From positions 2,433,042 to 2,497,041 of the forward strand of contig OX638375.1 of NCBI GenBank assembly GCA_951813575.1: a DNA stretch of 64,000 nt, given 5' to 3'. The notes under the pieces are model-generated. The model made no database searches, was not told where the DNA came from, and worked only from the letters and a program-made list of their open reading frames with translations. Both the position numbers and the translations under genes were made by a program. Source of the stretch: Candidatus Binatia bacterium (GTDB lineage Bacteria > Desulfobacterota > Binatia > UBA9968 > JAJDTQ01). Below are positions 1,014-62,186 of this stretch, in pieces; within the stretch, counting starts at the first letter, position 1, and each line of letters opens with the position of its first letter.

Positions 1014-2108
1014 ATGAGACTTCGGGATTTGGGAGAGTTCGGGCTCATCGACCTGATCCGGAGGAAGACCCCGCGGACGCGCGGCGTACGTCTGGGCATC
1101 GGCGACGACGCCGCCCGGGTCTCCACTCCCGAGGACTCGCTTCTGTTCACTTCGGATCTTCTCATCGAAGGCGTCCACTTCAACCTCGACTGGATCTCGA
1201 TGCGGGACCTCGGGCACAAGTCCCTCACCGCAAGCCTGAGCGACATCGCCGCCATGGGCGGACGGCCGGCCTATTTCCTGTTGTCGGCGGCCCTGCCCGA
1301 CGTCGCCGTGCAGCGGGCGGCCGCGCTCGTCCGGGGCATTCACGCCCTGGCCGCGGAGCACCGGGTGGCGCTGGTGGGAGGCGACACCTGCGCGGCGGAC
1401 CGGGTGATCATCGACGTGTTCCTGGCCGGCTTCGCCCCCTACGGGGCGGTCACCCGGGGCGGCGCCAGGGTGGGCGACGACATCTACGTCACCGGCACGC
1501 TGGGAGACTCGGCGCTGGGTCTGACACTGCTTTCCAAGCCCCGGCCCACGGTCTCCGCCAGGGACCGGAACTACCTCGTCCGGCGGCACCACCACCCCAC
1601 CGCCCGGGTGAACACCGGCATGCAACTGGCGAAGGAAGGCCTCGCCCGGGCCATGGTGGACGTCAGCGACGGGCTTGCCCAGGACCTGGGCCACATCTGC
1701 CGGGCCAGCGGCACCGGGGCGGTGGTACGACAGGACCGGGTGCCGCTGTCGCGCGCCTTCGGCCGCGTCGCGGGCGCGGACGACCTGACCTGCGCGCTGG
1801 CCGGCGGCGAAGACTACGAGCTGCTGTTCACCGCGGCCGGCGACGCCCGCCAGGGAGTGGAGCGCGTGGCCCGGCGAACCGGCGTCCCCATCACCCGCAT
1901 CGGCGAATGCGTGCCCCGAAAGCAGGGCCTCACGCTGGTGGACCCGCGGGGGGAAAGCACACCGCTGGCGGCACCGGGCTACGACCACTTTCACCCGGCC
2001 CCGGCCAACCCCGCCCCGGTCGGCTCGGCCGCGCCGCCCCTGGATTCCCGCCCCCCTCCGTCATTCCCGCGAAAGCGGGAATCCAGGGGGGGCGCGGCGG
2101 GGAGCTAG
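1014..2108 (+). CDS. thiL: Thiamine-monophosphate kinase
   Basis: ThiL phosphorylates thiamine monophosphate to the cofactor thiamine diphosphate in the cytoplasm. The PurM-like/AIR-synthase fold is recognisable: N-terminal GIGDDAA metal/ATP motif (about residues 24-30), the LxxSDIAAMGG segment (about 75-85), GDT, and MVDVSDGLAQDLGHI followed by GGEDYELL in the C-terminal half. At 364 residues it is longer than the usual 310-330. The extra C-terminus, with PRKRES in it, is encoded by a dispersed palindrome, so the native end was probably overwritten. It lies 6 bp before larB, so the two are probably co-transcribed. No TPP riboswitch was recognised upstream. Confidence 0.93.
   Translation: MRLRDLGEFGLIDLIRRKTPRTRGVRLGIGDDAARVSTPEDSLLFTSDLLIEGVHFNLDWISMRDLGHKSLTASLSDIAAMGGRPAYFLLSAALPDVAVQRAAALVRGIHALAAEHRVALVGGDTCAADRVIIDVFLAGFAPYGAVTRGGARVGDDIYVTGTLGDSALGLTLLSKPRPTVSARDRNYLVRRHHHPTARVNTGMQLAKEGLARAMVDVSDGLAQDLGHICRASGTGAVVRQDRVPLSRAFGRVAGADDLTCALAGGEDYELLFTAAGDARQGVERVARRTGVPITRIGECVPRKQGLTLVDPRGESTPLAAPGYDHFHPAPANPAPVGSAAPPLDSRPPPSFPRKRESRGGAAGS
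2060..2086. repeat. Dispersed palindrome (family 1) inside the thiL 3' end
   Basis: This is the core ATTCCCGC-GAAA-GCGGGAAT with the flanks GTC...CCAG seen in the other copies. It is read in frame as part of the ThiL tail and ends about 20 bp before the thiL stop. A partial second copy (CTGGATTCCCGC) precedes it at about 2039-2050. Confidence 0.9.
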
Positions 2109-12176: not shown

Positions 12177-12217
12177 GCCGAAAGGAAGCGGAGCCTGTCA
12201 TTCCGTGCCCCTCTTCC

Positions 12218-12267
12218 GTCATTCCCGCGAAAGCATGCCCTCGACCCGATCGGGGGCGGGAATCCAG
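12218..12267. repeat. Family 1 palindrome with expanded, self-complementary loop (second copy 12851-12900)
   Basis: The outer arms ATTCCCGC (12221-12228) and GCGGGAAT (12256-12263) match the standard element, but the usual GAAA loop is replaced by a longer insert containing its own palindrome CCCGATCGGG (12245-12254). It lies between the DUF35 gene and ubiD and is copied by the tandem duplication. Confidence 0.75.
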
Positions 12268-12326
12268 AAGCGGCGCGGCAAGTGGAACCGCCGAACGCGG
12301 CATCCCCCACACAAGGGAAGGCAACC

Positions 12327-12809
12327 ATGTCATACCGTGACCTGAGAGAATGGCTCGAGCAGGTGGACGCCATGGGCGAGCTCCGCCGGATTCCGGGTTG
12401 CGACTGGAACCTGGAGATCGGCGCCCTGGCGGAGGTGGCGGGACGCGGGCAGGACGCCTCCGCGCTGCTGTTCGACAACATCAAGGACTACCCCGAGGGG
12501 CACCGGGTGCTGGTGGGCATGGTGGAGTCGCTCAAGCGCGCCGCCCTCACCACCAACCTGCCCACCGACATCACCCGCAACGAGTTCATCGCCGCCTGGA
12601 AAGAACGCCTCAACAACCCCAAGCTGATCCCGCCGGACAAGGAAGAGCTTCCCTACGTCGTAGCGGTCATCGAGCTCGACGAGGGGCCGCGCATGCTCTC
12701 CAACGTCATCGGCTGCAAGCCCGAGGAAGTGCGCTGCGACATGCCGGTGGAGGTGGCCTTCGAGGACATCACCGACGAGATGACCCTGCCGAAGTTCCGG
12801 CCGGCCTGA
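12327..12809 (+). pseudogene. Chimeric ubiD'-DUF35' frame made by the tandem duplication
   Basis: This 160-residue open frame has the same start and first about 104 codons as the intact ubiD at 12960, then switches in frame at base 12638 to the last 57 codons of the DUF35 gene. It lacks the UbiD prFMN-binding core and catalytic Arg-Glu-Glu residues, and lacks the zinc ribbon of DUF35. It keeps a ribosome-binding region and a clean stop, so it could be translated, but no function is expected. It is best regarded as a by-product of the duplication. Confidence 0.88.
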
Positions 12810-12959
12810 GCCGAAAGGAAGCGGAGCCTGTCATTCCGTGCCCCTCTTCCGTCATTCCCGCGAAAGCATGCCCTCGACCCGATCGGGGGCGGGAATCCAG
12901 AAGCGGCGCGGCAAGTGGAACCGCCGAACGCGGCATCCCCCACACAAGGGAAGGCAACC

Positions 12960-19358: not shown

Positions 19359-20510
19359 TCAAGCGTCCCCGAACAGCACAAGCTGCGTCGCCTGATTGGG
19401 TCGGGTCCTGGGGATGACAATATCCGCCAGTGAGAGTCCTCCGTCTAGCAGGTCGCGGATATCCAAGTGTGAACTTGCCGGGCTCACCACGGTACCTTCG
19501 GTGCCAGGTGCCAGGAGCAGCGTTTCGTCGAGACCGATACCTTCGTCGCGGAGCAGGTCAGGAGAGTGCGTGCTGAGAAAGATCTGCCGCCTAGTCTGGC
19601 GTTGAACCCTCGCCAGCATCTGCGGAAGCAATCGGACAATCTCCGGGTGCAGCGAAAGCTCCGGCTCTTCCAACAGCAAGGGGCCCTCTCTCTCCATGGC
19701 CACCCACAACAATCCCATAAGCCTCAGCGTGCCATCAGAGAACTGTTCTTCGGTCTGCCAAGCTCCCTGCGGTCGCCAGTGCTGGTACTTGCCCCGCAGA
19801 TGTGGCGTGCCGCGGTCATCGCGCCGCAACTCTATTTCCTCGAGTTGTGGAACCGCGACGCGGAGGGCCTTCTGAATTCGTTTAAGTCTGGCGTTGCGGC
19901 TACGGTCCTGCGTCGTTGCCACCTGCTCCAGGAAGTCCCCGCCAAAGGGATCGTTGGATTGCCCCACCGAGCGATCGGGCTCACGGACGAGTTGGGGGAC
20001 GATATGCATGTACCGGATCGACGCGAAAAACGAGACGAGATCTCGAAACTTCTGGTTGACGTTTACTTGTTCGAGATAGGTTTGTGTCAGGCGCGCGGGG
20101 TCGGCAGTGTCGTCCGCATTGGGACGCTCGACCAGTTCGACATCGTCATGCAATACGCGCTCCCTACGGACCAGTGGTCTGCGCTGGTTATCTTGGCGCA
20201 GGGCCAACTCGTACTCCCATCGAGACCCACCCTCTTCTTCTTCCAGTTCGACTTGAATCTCAATGTCCGGGTTCTTGCGGGCCGCAAGGCAGCGAACCGC
20301 GCTCACGCCGCCACGCCGCGCCACGGCCTCCTGAAAACCACCACCCGACGATGCAAGGTCTCTCAAGAATCGAAAAACATCCAGGAAATTAGATTTCCCC
20401 GACGCATTGGGTCCGACAAGAAACAAGCGATCCTGAACGGCAACCTCCACGGCAGCAAAGTTCTTCCAGTTTTGTAAACGCAATTTGCGGAACCTCAAGT
20501 TCGTGCTCAT
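19359..20510 (-). CDS. AAA15/AAA21-type ABC-like ATPase
   Basis: A 383-residue ATPase of the RecF/OLD branch. It begins FRKLRLQNWKNF and has Walker A VGPNASGKSNFLD (about residues 32-44), a Q-loop region, the ABC-like signature FSDGTLRLMGL, Walker B GPLLLEEPELSLHP and the switch STHSPDLL. The family senses or processes DNA or RNA ends in defence and repair. The following gene starts 1 bp after its stop and encodes a TOPRIM-like partner. GC is lower than in the nearby housekeeping genes. No phage or integrase genes are beside it. Confidence 0.85.
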   Translation of the reverse strand: MSTNLRFRKLRLQNWKNFAAVEVAVQDRLFLVGPNASGKSNFLDVFRFLRDLASSGGGFQEAVARRGGVSAVRCLAARKNPDIEIQVELEEEEGGSRWEYELALRQDNQRRPLVRRERVLHDDVELVERPNADDTADPARLTQTYLEQVNVNQKFRDLVSFFASIRYMHIVPQLVREPDRSVGQSNDPFGGDFLEQVATTQDRSRNARLKRIQKALRVAVPQLEEIELRRDDRGTPHLRGKYQHWRPQGAWQTEEQFSDGTLRLMGLLWVAMEREGPLLLEEPELSLHPEIVRLLPQMLARVQRQTRRQIFLSTHSPDLLRDEGIGLDETLLLAPGTEGTVVSPASSHLDIRDLLDGGLSLADIVIPRTRPNQATQLVLFGDA

Positions 20511-20555
20511 GACGTTTGCCTCTCGGGGATTCTCTGTTGGGTGCCCTCTTTACCT

Positions 20556-20582
20556 CTGGACTCCCGCTTTCGCAGGAACGAC
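20556..20582. repeat. Degenerate family 1 palindrome
   Basis: CTGGACTCCCGC-TTTC-GCAGGAAC matches the element in reverse orientation with two changes in the arms. It lies in the 103-bp gap between the AAA ATPase start and the stop of the convergently placed molybdenum hydroxylase gene. Confidence 0.7.
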
Positions 20583-20613
20583 GTATTCCGGGCGTCGGCA
20601 TGTCGCGTGCCCT

Positions 20614-23007
20614 CTACCCGCCCCTCCCCTCCGCCTCCCGCACCAGCGCCCTGATCCGGTCCGGGCTGAGCGGCAGCTCCTTGATCTGAATCCCCAGCGA
20701 CGACAGGGCGTGGGACACCGCGTTGGCCAGGGCAGCGCCGCAGGCGACGATGCCGCCTTCGCCGGCGCCCTTGACGCCCAGCGGGTTCAGGGGCGAGGGG
20801 GAGTACTCGGTGATGATGCTCTCCACGGGCGGGATCTCCGTGGCGGACGGGAGCGGGTAGTCGAGCAGGGTGGTGGTCAGGAGCTGGCCGTCCTGGTTGT
20901 AGGCAAGCTCCTCCAGCAGCGTGCCGCCGATGCCCTGGGCGGCGGCGCCGAGGGCCTGGCCGTGCACCAGCAGCGGGTTGACGGCGCGGCCCACGTCCTC
21001 CAGCACGAGGTAGCGCAGGATGTCCACCATGCCGGTCTCGGGGTCCACGGTGACGTGGACCAGGTGGCCGCCGTAGGTGTAGGTGAGCAGGTTGTTGTGG
21101 AAGTACTCGGTGGCCTCGAGGCCGGGGGCGGCGTCGCCGGGGGCCTTGCCGGGCCGGGTCATCTCGAGCAGGTCGCCGAGGCCAAGCAACGGGCGGTCCG
21201 TCCCCGCCACATCAACCCCTGGATTCCCGCTTTCGCGGGAATGACGGGGGGCGGGCGGCGGCTGGGGGGTGCCTGCGGCGTAGACCCCGCCGTCGCGGAA
21301 CTCCAACCCGCCCGGGTCGGTCTCCAGGCGTCGCGATGCCACCTCCAGCAGGCGTTTCTTGAGCGCCTGGGCGGTGAGGTGCACGGCGTTGCCGGCCATG
21401 ACGGTGCCGCGGCTGGAGTAGGTGCCGCCGCCCCAGGGCATGAGGTCGGTGTGGCCGTGGAACACGGTGATCCACTCCATGGGCACGCCCAGGGCGTCGG
21501 CGCAGATCTGCGACATGATGGTCTCGTGGCCCTGTCCCAGGGTGGCGATGCCCAGGTAGACGGCCACGCTCTCCGGGCCGGTGATGGCCACGCGCGCGCC
21601 CTCGGACGGCCCGAGGCCGGTGTTCTTCACGAACCAGCCGATGCCGATGCCGTGGTAGCGCCCGTCCCGCTTCTGCCCCTGGAGCGGCCGCAGCTCGTCC
21701 CAGCCGAAGCGTTCCAGGGCGTGCTCCAGCGCCCGCGGATAGTCGCCGCTGTCGAACACGGTGGAGGCGATGCCGGGCCGGGTGGGGCCCAGCTCGTAGG
21801 GGATCTCCTCCGGCTGGATGAGGTTCTTGCGGCGCAGGTCGATGGGGTCCATGCCCAGGTCCTCGGCCACCATGTCGAGCATGCGCTCCCGGAAGTAGCA
21901 GGACTCGTAGCGCCCGGGTGCGCGGTAGGTGCCCACCCCCATCTTGTTGGTCATGACGCAGCGTATGTGGGCCTCGTAGGCCGGGACCCGGTAGGGTCCG
22001 GGCAGCACGCCGGCGGTGGAGGCCGGTACGAGCCCGCCGTGGGTGCGGATGTGGGCGCCCATGTCGCCGTGGATGTGGGCGCGCATGCCCAGGAGCGTGC
22101 CGTCCTTCCGCGCGGCGATCTCCAGCTCGCAGTGGACTTCCCGCGAGTGGTTGGCGGCCATCAGGTGCTCGCGCCGGTCCTCGATCCACTTGACCGGTCG
22201 CCCGAGCTTCATGGCGGCGTAGGGGACCAGGTAGTCCTCCGGGTAGAACTCGCCGCGGATGCCGAAGCCGCCGCCCACGTCGGGCTCCACGAAGTGGATG
22301 CGATGCTCGGGAAGCTCCATCAGCGAGGACAGCACGGCGCGGTTGAAGTGCGCCACCTTGGTCATGCCCCACACCGTCAACTCGTTCCGGCCGGCGTCCC
22401 AGGACGCCACCAGACCGCGGGTCTCCATGGGGTTGCCGGTATGGCGGTGCGTCCGCAACACCTCCTTGCGGGTGTACTCGGCGTCGCGGAACGCGCCGTC
22501 CACGTCGCCCAGCTTGATGTCGTGGCCGCCGGCCACGTTGGTGCCCTGCTCCTCGTGGATGATCACGTCGCCGCGCAGCGCCGCCTCGACGTCCGGCACC
22601 ACTCCCAGGGGCTCGTACTCCACTTCGATCAGGTCGGCGCCGTCCTCGGCCACGTAGCGGTCCACCGCCGCCACCAGCGCCACCGGCTCGCCCACGTAGG
22701 CGACCTTGCCCCGGGCCAGCGGGTACTGCAGGAAGCGGTCCAGCCCGTCCAACTGGTACATGCGCAGCGGGATCGGCTTGACGCCCGCCGGCAAATCCGC
22801 AAAGGTGAGCACGCCGACGACCCCCGCGAGCTTCAGGGCCTCCGACACGTCCACCGACTTGATGCGCGCGTGCGCGTGGGGACTCCGCAGGACGGCCGCA
22901 TACAACATCCCGGGCAGCTTCACATCGTCGATGAAGGTGGCCTTGCCGGTCAGGAAACGAACGTCTTCGCTACGCCGGATCGGCGCCCCGATGTAAGTCT
23001 GCGTCAT
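20614..23007 (-). CDS. Xanthine-dehydrogenase-family molybdenum hydroxylase large subunit
   Basis: A 797-residue molybdopterin-cytosine-dinucleotide-binding subunit. It opens with IGAPIRRSEDVRFLTGKATFIDD and has GGGFGIRGEFYPED, GVGTYRAPGRYESCYFRERML and, near the end, GVKGAGEGGIVACGAALANAV with the catalytic Glu. The CO-dehydrogenase active-site loop (AYxCSFR) is absent, so CO oxidation is not supported; the substrate is an unknown aldehyde, N-heterocycle or similar. The usual FAD and 2Fe-2S subunits are not adjacent. A family 1 palindrome is inserted in frame near 21219-21245. Start ATG at 23007; upstream in-frame codons run into another palindrome. Confidence 0.88.
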   Translation of the reverse strand: MTQTYIGAPIRRSEDVRFLTGKATFIDDVKLPGMLYAAVLRSPHAHARIKSVDVSEALKLAGVVGVLTFADLPAGVKPIPLRMYQLDGLDRFLQYPLARGKVAYVGEPVALVAAVDRYVAEDGADLIEVEYEPLGVVPDVEAALRGDVIIHEEQGTNVAGGHDIKLGDVDGAFRDAEYTRKEVLRTHRHTGNPMETRGLVASWDAGRNELTVWGMTKVAHFNRAVLSSLMELPEHRIHFVEPDVGGGFGIRGEFYPEDYLVPYAAMKLGRPVKWIEDRREHLMAANHSREVHCELEIAARKDGTLLGMRAHIHGDMGAHIRTHGGLVPASTAGVLPGPYRVPAYEAHIRCVMTNKMGVGTYRAPGRYESCYFRERMLDMVAEDLGMDPIDLRRKNLIQPEEIPYELGPTRPGIASTVFDSGDYPRALEHALERFGWDELRPLQGQKRDGRYHGIGIGWFVKNTGLGPSEGARVAITGPESVAVYLGIATLGQGHETIMSQICADALGVPMEWITVFHGHTDLMPWGGGTYSSRGTVMAGNAVHLTAQALKKRLLEVASRRLETDPGGLEFRDGGVYAAGTPQPPPAPRHSRESGNPGVDVAGTDRPLLGLGDLLEMTRPGKAPGDAAPGLEATEYFHNNLLTYTYGGHLVHVTVDPETGMVDILRYLVLEDVGRAVNPLLVHGQALGAAAQGIGGTLLEELAYNQDGQLLTTTLLDYPLPSATEIPPVESIITEYSPSPLNPLGVKGAGEGGIVACGAALANAVSHALSSLGIQIKELPLSPDRIRALVREAEGRGG
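21219..21245. repeat. Family 1 palindrome inserted in frame in the molybdenum hydroxylase gene
   Basis: CTGGATTCCCGC-TTTC-GCGGGAATGAC is 27 bases, exactly nine codons. It is translated on the minus strand as part of RHSRESGNPGV, so the reading frame is kept. It sits between a conserved strand (RDGGVYAAG) and the region before LEMTRPG, probably a surface loop. Confidence 0.92.
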
Positions 23008-23036
23008 GTGCTGCTCCGTGACTTGACCCCCCACCC

Positions 23037-23063
23037 CTGGATTCCCGCTTTCGCGGGAACGGC
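23037..23063. repeat. Family 1 palindrome between divergent genes
   Basis: A nearly perfect copy (CTGGATTCCCGC-TTTC-GCGGGAAC) in the 128-bp gap between the molybdenum hydroxylase and the membrane-protein gene. Nothing else was recognised in this gap apart from short AT-rich bases near 23100. Confidence 0.85.
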
Positions 23064-23135
23064 GGTTTCGGGGCGGCGGTGTCCGTGCCAGTATTCGTAC
23101 CAGACTAGTACACGCGTGTCGCATTTCGCAAAGCA

Positions 23136-24461
23136 ATGGTGCTCTTGAAGCAACTTACCCGCCCGGAGACCCTGTTCGTGCTTCTATGGGGGAGCCAAGT
23201 GGTCAGGATGGCTTGGCCGGGCGCGGCCATGGACCTCGCGGGGGCGGTCTTCGCCGCGTTGTTCATCCTCCGGGTGTTCGTATTCCTGCGCCGGGCGACC
23301 ATCGTGCTGTGCTGCGCGCTCACCGCCCTGGCCGCCGTGCTCATCTTCATCTACGGCGGCCCGGCCACGGTGCTGACAGGGTTCACGGCGGCGCCCATGT
23401 TCGCCGGCTTCTTCGGCACCATCGTGCTGCTGCGCGCCACCGGGGAGCAGCTCCGGCAGATCACCCACGCCCGCGAGTTGTTCGAGCGGCTCAAGCCCGA
23501 CCACCGGCTGGGCGGCTTCCTGGTGGGCAGCCACCTGCTGGCGGTGGTGCTGGGCCCCGGCGCCTACGCCATCACCGCCCCCATCATAGGCCAGAGCAAG
23601 GCGGAGGACGAGCACCTGGCGGCCATGCGCGCCTGCCATCGCGGCGGCGGCCTCGCGGGCCTGTGGTCGCCGTTCTGGATCGCCATGGCGCTGTCGTCGC
23701 AGTACGTGCCGGGAGTGCCCCTGTGGCACACCATGGCGTTGGGCATGTCCATGGCCGCCCTGGCGTTGACGGCCTCCCACGTGCTCTTTGCGCCGGAACC
23801 GGGCATCACCCTCCTGTGGCGGGCGCTGCGGAGCCTCCAGCCCATCGTCCCGCCGGTGGCGGTGTGCGTCCTGTCGGTAGCGGTGCTGTCCGGCGTCACG
23901 GTGTTGTCGGGCCTGGAGGCGCTGATCGTGAGCGTGCCGGTTCTGTGCGCGCTGGCGCTCCTGGGAAAAGGCCGGCGCGCGTTCGTGACGGCCCTGGCCG
24001 GCACCTACCGGGGCACCGCCTATGTCGGCAACGAGATCGCGATCCTGACCCTGTCGCTGGCCCTGGGCGGGGTGATCCGCCACGTCTTCGCGCAGACCGG
24101 CATTACCGTCTGGATCGGCGGCCTCGATCTGCCCGCCATTGCCGTCATCGCCACCATGATCGGCGCCACCTCCCTCGGCGCCCTGGTCGGGGTGCACCAG
24201 ATCGTGTCGGTGTCGTTGCTCCTGTCCGTGTTCTCGGACCTGCCAGTGCGGGTGGCGGGCGTGGTGCTCATCGAGAGCACCCTGGCGGCCTGGTCCTGCT
24301 CGTCCATAGTCGGCCTCTCCGCCATCATGGTCGGCACCGCCACCACCATGTTCCGCGTCCCCCCGGGAAAGGTCATCCTCGGGCCCAACCTCCAGTTCAC
24401 CGCGCTGTTCGCCATTGGATGCATCGTGGTGTTGGCGGGGGTGAACGCGCTGCTGACGTAG
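23136..24461 (+). CDS. Polytopic inner-membrane protein, probable transporter of unknown substrate
   Basis: A 441-residue hydrophobic protein with about eleven to twelve membrane segments. Visible features are a short basic N-terminus, a charged cytoplasmic loop (RATGEQLRQITHARELFERLKPDHR, about residues 100-124), a HLLAVVLGPGAYAITAPIIGQSK stretch and repeated small-residue helices with GATSLGALVGVHQIVSVSLLLSV and SSIVGLSAIMVGTAT. The layout resembles ion-transporter-like permeases with two half-repeats, but I do not recognise the family. It starts 128 bp from the divergent molybdenum hydroxylase gene, and no soluble partner follows directly. Confidence 0.7.
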   Translation: MVLLKQLTRPETLFVLLWGSQVVRMAWPGAAMDLAGAVFAALFILRVFVFLRRATIVLCCALTALAAVLIFIYGGPATVLTGFTAAPMFAGFFGTIVLLRATGEQLRQITHARELFERLKPDHRLGGFLVGSHLLAVVLGPGAYAITAPIIGQSKAEDEHLAAMRACHRGGGLAGLWSPFWIAMALSSQYVPGVPLWHTMALGMSMAALALTASHVLFAPEPGITLLWRALRSLQPIVPPVAVCVLSVAVLSGVTVLSGLEALIVSVPVLCALALLGKGRRAFVTALAGTYRGTAYVGNEIAILTLSLALGGVIRHVFAQTGITVWIGGLDLPAIAVIATMIGATSLGALVGVHQIVSVSLLLSVFSDLPVRVAGVVLIESTLAAWSCSSIVGLSAIMVGTATTMFRVPPGKVILGPNLQFTALFAIGCIVVLAGVNALLT

Positions 24462-28871: not shown

Positions 28872-28897
28872 GTCCTTCCCGAGAAAGCGGGAATCCA
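28872..28897. repeat. Family 1 palindrome between beta and alpha decarboxylase genes
   Basis: TTCCCGAGAAAGCGGGAATCCAG with one arm change (CCCGAG for CCCGCG) lies 24 bp before the alpha-subunit ATG, inside the operon. It would fold in the mRNA and could affect relative expression. Confidence 0.8.
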
Positions 28898-30540: not shown

Positions 30541-30614
30541 CTGGATGCCCGCGCGCCCCCCTCCGTCATTCCCGCGCGCCCCCTCCGTCATTCCCGCGAA
30601 AGCGGGAATCCAGG
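30541..30614. repeat. Cluster of family 1 palindrome copies
   Basis: One full element (30588-30614) and partial copies (CTGGATGCCCGC at 30541; GTCATTCCCGCGCGC at about 30565) lie between the decarboxylase operon and exbD. The full copy encodes the last residues and stop of exbD on the minus strand. Confidence 0.88.
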
Positions 30615-47197: not shown

Positions 47198-47224
47198 CTG
47201 GATTCCCGCTTGCGCGGGAATGAC
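47198..47224. repeat. Family 1 palindrome after lpxA
   Basis: CTGGATTCCCGC-TTGC-GCGGGAATGAC, with loop TTGC instead of TTTC, sits in the 71-bp convergent gap between lpxA and the ferritin-like gene. It could act as a bidirectional transcript end. Confidence 0.85.
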
Positions 47225-56270: not shown

Positions 56271-56402
56271 CATTCTCCGCTTCCCGCTAACGTCGTTCCC
56301 GCCCGCCTCCGTCATTCCCGCCCGCCTCCGTCATTCCCGCGGCTCCTCCCCGTCATTCCCGCGGCTCCTCCCCGTCATTCCCGCGAAAGCGGGAATCCAG
56401 GG
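56271..56402. repeat. Array of family 1 half-palindromes
   Basis: CGTCATTCCCGC units recur about every 20-25 bp (spacers such as CCGCCTC and GGCTCCTCCC), ending in one full element with GAAA loop (56376-56402). They lie between the atpE terminator and the dCMP deaminase gene. Confidence 0.88.
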
Positions 56403-61859: not shown

Positions 61860-62164
61860 CGTTCCTCTTCTCCGCCGTTTCCACCCCTTCTCCGTCATTC
61901 CGCCGCTCCTCGGTCGTTCCGCCGCTCCTCGGTCATTCCGCCCCTCCTCCGTCATTCCGTCCCTCCTCCGTCATTCCGTCCCTCCTCCGTCATTCCGTCC
62001 CTCCTGCGCGATTCCTGCCCCCTCCTGCGCGGTTTCCACCCCTCCTGCGCCGTTCCCGCCCCTCCGTCATTCCCGCGAAAGCGGGAATCCAGGGGCGGTG
62101 GTGGGGTGCTACAGCGGCGTTTCCTGCCGTACCTCTCCTGGATTCCCGCTTTCGCGGGAATGAC
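61860..62164. repeat. Palindrome-derived repeat array
   Basis: This stretch is filled with CGTCATTCC units, some in a 21-bp tandem array (CTCCTCCGTCATTCCGTCCCT, about 61945-62000), and ends with two full family 1 elements in opposite orientation (62066-62092 and 62138-62164). It is the left half of a 648-bp intergenic region (61730-62377), the longest in the window. No gene is seen. Confidence 0.88.
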
Positions 62165-62186
62165 GGAAGGGGTGCGGGAATGACGA

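Follow-up and report, generated by a model that had tools for sequence, protein, structure and literature searches.

A CGTC-1 REP unit inserted in frame in a CoxL-like gene of a Binatia bacterium, and half-site repeats on one side of the family's hairpins

Comparison with related genomes identifies a palindrome inside the reading frame of a CoxL-like molybdenum hydroxylase gene of a Candidatus Binatia bacterium as a real, in-frame insertion of a CGTC-1 REP unit. The gene lies in the window, the whole stretch of 64,000 nucleotides that was analysed. This core observation is not new in kind, since intragenic CGTC REPs are already known. What goes beyond the known is the presence of polar arrays of half-sites, with lengthening of proteins at REP sites, and a DnaA-tailed HUH transposase gene that has CGTC REPs on its flanks in REP-rich congeners. 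Intragenic REPs are usually catalogued singly; here, in a single genus, the REP sites of two genes are variously empty, filled, decayed or expanded. With 8 to 703 REPs per genome across this genus, the gain, loss and growth of REP-derived peptides become traceable.

The REP unit in the CoxL-like gene

The gene and the elements in and around it are as follows (window coordinates).
20614..23007, minus strand: large subunit of a CoxL-like molybdenum hydroxylase (MoCoBD_1/MoCoBD_2), 797 aa when counted from MTQTY, the likely start; from ORF, Pfam and NCBIfam
21220..21246, minus strand: CGTC-1 REP unit, in-frame RHSRESGNP; CGTC tag, 8-bp stem ATTCCCGC, loop GAAA, CCA tail
21199..21267, minus strand: insertion of 69 nt (23 codons) when compared with the empty site in genomes G001 and G008, from the GLEF-LLEMT spacing
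23039..23063, minus strand: second REP unit, 2 mismatches, upstream of the likely CoxL start; genome palindrome scan
20558..20582, minus strand: degenerate REP unit, 3 mismatches, directly downstream of the CoxL gene; genome palindrome scan

The open reading frame containing the palindrome (20614-23136, minus strand, 840 aa) is spanned by the Pfam domains Ald_Xan_dh_C, MoCoBD_1 and MoCoBD_2. Its best NCBIfam model, NF040766 (aerobic CO dehydrogenase large subunit), scored 687.7 bits, which is under the 950-bit cut-off of that model. The start codon is likely to be at 23007 rather than at 23136, because the first 43 codons of the longer frame contain the second, upstream REP unit. An open frame of 887 codons also runs antisense to the gene (20485-23148, plus strand); open frames of this kind make the automatic choice of the longest ORF unreliable in this GC-rich genome.

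On the plus strand the palindrome reads TGGATTCCCGCTTTCGCGGGAATGACG; on the gene strand the same positions read CGT CAT TCC CGC GAA AGC GGG AAT CCA, that is, RHSRESGNP. The claim of a sequence-only reading, that a perfect 27-base copy of nine codons is translated with no frame break, was thus confirmed by the sequence and the ORF translation. From its letters, the REP sequence is free of stops in five of the six frames. The insertion as a whole exceeds the palindrome itself.

The site was compared in nine congeneric genomes, G000 (the genome of the window) to G008, and could be read in six; in G006 it falls at a contig end, and G003 and G005 have only paralogues (61% identity at most). The number of codons between GLEF and LLEMT was 19 in G001 and G008 (L045 and L043), 42 in G000, 43 in G002, 74 in G004 and 95 in G007. 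Three of the six genomes carry the REP (G000, G002 and G007), one has a degenerate form in which split, degenerate half-sites remain (G004), and two are empty (G001 and G008). In G007, the REP shared with G000 is adjoined by seven 21-nt repeats. The RHSRESGNP peptide was also absent from all 11 more distant homologues aligned. Together with the two empty congeners, this bears out the expectation that relatives would lack the peptide.

In the window and in L041, the insert lies between imperfect direct repeats (AGT...AGTD), which may be either target duplications or a part of the element. For two intergenic REP dimers compared with congeners in search of target-site duplications, the flanks were too diverged to set the ends. 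In the window the repeats lie at 21199-21207 and 21268-21276; they are apparently also present at an insert in a UvrA gene (L014, about 1501), and a GCGGGGACGG-like sequence lies to the right of both the CoxL and the UvrA inserts. The placement of the peptide in a surface loop, which had been proposed earlier, was not demonstrated: AlphaFold2 models of the window protein and six homologues had a mean pLDDT of 37 over the seven sequences, and PDB relatives found by sequence place the insert between aligned blocks and nothing finer.

The repeat family in the window, the genome and the genus

The genome consists of one contig of 4,210,610 bases, and the G+C content of the window is 66%. A 25-mer of the palindrome was found with at most three mismatches at 95 places in the whole genome, ten of them inside the window, and at none with the reversed control; the dispersal noted on first reading therefore stands. 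The stem arm ATTCCCGC occurs 27 times in the window, compared to 3.99 +/- 1.85 expected, and none of 100 shuffles reached 27. Alignment of all 95 copies gave the core CGTC-ATTCCCGC-GAAA-GCGGGAAT-CCAG, bordered by G-rich sequence on the right and C-rich sequence on the left. In the consensus of the 82 units with at most one mismatch, the CGTC tag sits at one end of the hairpin. The stem has 8 bp and starts with AT, the loop has 4 nt and the tail is CCA (ATTCCCGC / GAAA / GCGGGAAT / CCA). Neighbouring REPs less than 200 nt apart formed 23 head-to-head, two head-to-tail and no tail-to-tail pairs.

These features match the description of CGTC-1 REPs in the part of Di Nocera, De Gregorio and Rocco (2013, PMC3733652) that was consulted: a CGTC tag, an 8-bp stem starting with AT, a 4-nt loop, a CCA tail and head-to-head dimers. 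By this likeness of sequence and dimer orientation, the palindrome is a member of the CGTC-1 family. The location of copies is similar too, mostly intergenic with some intragenic copies, and uvrA is among the targets in both cases; the Binatia lineage is not named in that part of the paper. According to the same text, the family includes Rickettsia RPE-6 and Neisseria dRS3. The comparison with Rickettsia made in the sequence-only reading was therefore apt, since R. conorii RPE-6 is equated there with CGTC-1 REPs, and RPE-6 and RPE-4 insert into genes as the present element does. Unlike the Rickettsia elements, to which the likeness is drawn by published description and not by RPE sequence, the present family lives in a GC-rich genome with only 3 of 70 clusters intragenic. 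The dRS3 elements differ from it in being described, in the text consulted, mostly in large clusters.

The remaining REP units of the window are listed below.
2060..2084, plus strand: REP unit giving the C-terminal codons SFPRKRESR of a ThiL-like ORF (named by eye); palindrome scan
28872..28896, plus strand: REP unit between genes, 2 mismatches; palindrome scan
30564..30611, plus strand: REP unit (30587-30611) whose CGTC side is adjoined by a single tandem half-site at a 22-nt period; half-site scan
47200..47224, minus strand: REP unit, 1 mismatch; palindrome scan
56291..56398, plus strand: REP unit (56374-56398) with four half-sites before its CGTC side, periods 22, 22, 19 and 19; half-site scan
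62066..62185, no single strand: two REP units in a head-to-head dimer (62066-62090 and 62140-62164), the second having a half-site on its CGTC side; palindrome and half-site scans

A REP cluster was called intragenic if one frame was open through the cluster and a codon score, trained on long, GC3-rich ORFs of the analysed stretches, exceeded 6 on both sides. Copies at the ends of genes escape this rule; an example is the one at 2060-2084, which supplies the last codons (SFPRKRESRGGAAGS) of the ThiL-like ORF (1008-2108). By this rule, 3 of the 70 clusters of G000 are intragenic: those in CoxL, in a class-II UvrA and in an Lhr-type helicase. None of 36 clusters was intragenic in 382 kb of G007 and G005, a sample that does not include the contigs carrying the CoxL and Lhr REPs of G007. 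Placement is thus mostly intergenic, as for CGTC-1 REPs in general. The sequence-only reading had asked whether frame-preserving insertions are enriched, and such an enrichment was not demonstrated: all three intragenic cases are in frame, but the screen itself demanded an open frame, and purifying selection explains it. Among 15 loci with coding sequence on both sides, no frame-breaking REP insertion was found; by eye, these REPs lie between different, complete-looking genes.

In the class-II UvrA (G000:C1:1712414), a REP and one in-frame half-site follow the second Walker A segment, and among the nine congeners the insert is found in G000 only. In the Lhr-type helicase (G000, 2390524 and 2390569), the frame runs through a complete head-to-head REP dimer. 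It is present in four of the nine genomes (G000, G004, G005 and G007) and absent from the other five. Measured from stop to stop, the Lhr frame is 1465 to 1489 aa long in the five genomes without the dimer, and 1504 (G000), 1604 (G005), 1617 (G007) and 1653 aa (G004) in the others, an excess that comes in part from other gaps, for example one after alignment column 641.

With at most two mismatches, the number of REP copies was 8 in G008, 18 in G006 (a genome 76% complete), 19 in G001, 85 in G002, 90 in G000, 111 in G003, 375 in G004, 574 in G005 and 703 in G007. Trees were built for uvB, class-II UvrA, Lhr and the transposase; the uvA set, spoiled by wrong reading frames that came from such automatic ORF choices, was left out along with the concatenated tree and identity matrix containing it. 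G003, G004, G005 and G007 cluster together in the uvB, class-II UvrA and Lhr trees. The presence or absence of the REP, in CoxL as in Lhr, does not fit one clean gain on the trees. From the presence/absence and copy-number differences we infer that the element may be mobile; these differences fit the mobile palindromes proposed on first reading, but neither a transposition event nor an expressed insert peptide was observed.

Two observations concern the surroundings of REP copies. In the window, from 12217 to 12899 and on to about 13089, matches recur at exactly 633 nt (12217/12850, 12256/12889 and 12445/13078) and share their surroundings, which indicates a direct duplication from 12217 to about 13089; both of its copies hold a REP-like palindrome with some 20 extra loop nucleotides. 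In addition, the CGTC-side flanks of the G000 REPs at 725856, 2099728, 2293236, 2788979 and 2931624 share a further repeat resembling AACACCATCCGAGAGCGGCAACAACC, so that some REP copies may belong to a larger element.

Half-sites on the CGTC side

Half-sites were counted around 153 REP units, 90 of them from G000, 37 from G007 and 26 from G005. An extra copy of GTCATTCCCGC was found within 12 to 45 nt on the CGTC side of 44 units, compared to two units with a tail-side half on the other side (two-sided binomial P = 3e-11, treating units as independent). The two tail-side exceptions belong to an array of full units with a 34-nt period; one head-to-tail array of this period lies at G000 3927666-3927758. 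In 42 of the 44 cases, the repeated segment ends 11 to 12 nt into the unit, that is, at the stem/loop boundary. The 41 arrays contained 84 intervals, of 18 (4 cases), 19 (10), 20 (25), 21 (34) and 22 nt (11). Neighbouring spacers within arrays were 85% identical, compared to 58% for random spacers. The outermost spacer matched the outer flank at 0.571, against 0.470 +/- 0.021 after shuffling, a modest likeness, so that not every array is a clean product of simple tandem duplication.

The exact half-site pattern was found 28 times in G000, 16 in G007, 10 in G005, 5 in G004, 4 in G002, 2 in G006, and not at all in three genomes. In a scan of 198 sampled genomes of the phylum, made irrespective of their content of CGTC REPs, G000 alone was positive for half-site arrays. 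Among IMG/VR contigs, nine stretches had the CGTC-side arrangement and none the tail-side one; several of the nine share one sequence context, so that they amount to fewer than nine independent cases. CGTC-side half-sites are present on IMG/VR contigs that look like Neisseria, the genus of dRS3, an element equated with CGTC-1 in the text consulted.

We take the end of the repeated segment at the stem/loop boundary as a sign of slippage, and the arrays would then be tandem duplications provoked by the hairpin. In genes, half-site arrays lengthen the protein at REP sites. Clear intragenic arrays, with a 21-nt period, are found in the UvrA of G000 and on both outer (CGTC) sides of the Lhr dimer of G007; the 21-nt repeats in the CoxL of G007 and the 24-nt repeats in the Lhr of G004 resemble half-sites weakly. 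One-sided arrays are not described in the part of PMC3733652 consulted, nor was a description found in the consulted portions of the open-licence literature on REP-linked tandem duplication or intragenic REP repeats. Their strict one-sidedness is a mechanistic clue that can be tested in any genome with CGTC REPs, and a REP hairpin with repeat growth on its tag side offers a simple route to new protein pieces.

A candidate transposase and the origin of the inserts

Eight of the nine congeners have a single gene for a Y1 HUH transposase with a C-terminal DnaA-like domain; G001 is without it. The HUH motif is present in all eight and the Y---NP motif in five. At the alignment position of E. coli RayT Tyr115, which we take to be the nucleophile, G003, G004, G005, G007 and G008 have Tyr, and G000, G002 and G006 have His. 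The G000 gene accordingly falls outside the RAYT definition (HUH plus a catalytic Tyr before NP(V/L)(R/K)), having His at the putative catalytic Tyr, and it scored 60.2 bits with the NCBIfam model REP_Tyr_transpos, below the cut-off of 80. From these residues, the transposase is probably dead in G000 and intact in REP-rich congeners. In the published description, as far as consulted, the nucleophilic Tyr adjoins the NP motif. The gene resembles TnpAY1 subclass 2.1.2 with a Bac_DnaA_C tail, as presented in the part of PMC6006769 consulted, in its HUH core, its Y---NP motif (in these five of eight) and its C-terminal DnaA-like domain.

REPs of the window family lie on both sides of the transposase gene in G004, G005 and G007, on one side in G003, and on neither in G000, G002, G006 and G008. 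A REPIN is a pair of REPs with a spacer, linked to one RAYT gene; REP pairs are present here, and so is one transposase gene in eight of the nine congeners, but in G000 this gene is without window-family flanks. Upstream of the G000 gene (L031 1987-2134) lies a head-to-head dimer of a different CGTC palindrome (CGTCATCCCGGACTTGATCCGGGATCCA). In a REP-rich sample, random REP-free 1-kb intervals had REPs in both flanks at a frequency of 0.0017. Since REPs lie between genes, this value is too low for real genes; moreover, the three flanked genomes are related to one another. A CGTC hairpin was found near none of 22 related loci outside the genus (the only hit of the scan was a stretch of N). In G008 the tyrosine is intact, yet there are only 8 REP copies. 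The link between transposase and REPs is weak, and we treat it as a lead. The part of PMC3733652 consulted reports no CGTC REP beside a tyrosine transposase gene, and that of PMC6006769 no REP-like sequences near subclass 2.1 genes (from an automatic search with GT[AG]G tags), whereas here window-family CGTC REPs are near the gene in four of eight congeners. Confirmation of the link would answer a question that the 2013 work left open. A bolder scheme, in which we place little confidence, would have this transposase act on the tag of CGTC REPs, which reportedly have no transposase of their own, and so move them; that action on the tag side, or stalling at the hairpin, would also grow half-site arrays on one side, and within genes the process would insert a nine-codon seed and then peptide repeats.

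As a whole, we consider it probable that a REP inserted in CoxL and that repeats then grew by slippage on the tag side, mobilisation by the DnaA-tailed HUH transposase being the least certain step. The REP would have been copied into CoxL from the genomic REP population, and would have survived because the landing stretch tolerates a change of length and because the length and sequence of the unit keep the frame. Once inserted, its CGTC side would be prone to tandem duplication of the CGTC tag, the 5' stem arm and about 8 nt of flank, driven by slippage that the hairpin provokes; the copies seen in genes have a period divisible by three and lengthen the protein. The chance that HSRESGNP is a native peptide, or a fortuitous resemblance unrelated to the palindrome, is close to nil: no supporting point was found, the match to the 95-copy family is exact over 25 to 27 nt, and close congeners are without the peptide. 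Since presence and absence do not follow the trees cleanly, G001 and G008 may instead have undergone precise loss of an ancestral REP, perhaps through recombination between the direct repeats encoding AGTD, or REP alleles may have been exchanged between congeners. We regard this as possible but rather doubtful. The filled and empty states do not fall on one clean branch in either CoxL or Lhr, and imperfect repeats do lie beside the insert; however, the absence of the peptide from every more distant homologue means that it was gained at some depth, and the empty-site orthologues are in two of the three REP-poorest congeners (8 and 19 copies).

The half-site arrays could also have arisen by decay of head-to-tail REP arrays, or be iteron-like sites that a binding protein keeps at a distance of about two helical turns. 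A true head-to-tail array with a 34-nt period does exist in G000, and the narrow range of periods, 18 to 22 nt, would suit regularly placed sites; we nevertheless find this origin rather unlikely, given that 42 of 44 repeats reach no further than the stem/loop boundary, with no 3' stem arm left, and that neighbouring spacers are locus-specific. Preservation of the in-gene REP for its usefulness, whether as an mRNA hairpin or as a loop for new interactions, seems highly improbable. G000 and G007 have the same nine codons, from which G002 departs by one synonymous base, with no non-synonymous change among the three carriers, but this is not exceptional: for about 6.3 synonymous sites and a dS of 0.25 to 0.34, only one or two synonymous changes are expected. 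Moreover, the G004 copy has decayed while the gene was retained. Purifying selection acts on the gene itself whether the insert is there or not (dN/dS 0.126 for both G000/G002 and G000/G007, 0.138 for G001/G008), and insertion followed by tag-side growth remains our preferred reading.

A last observation concerns UvrA: at G000:C1:2261027-2266594 (L131 and L139), a single open frame of 1935 aa contains two matches of UvrA length and is thus a tandem UvrA fusion; paired UvrA-length matches occur in the other eight congeners as well.
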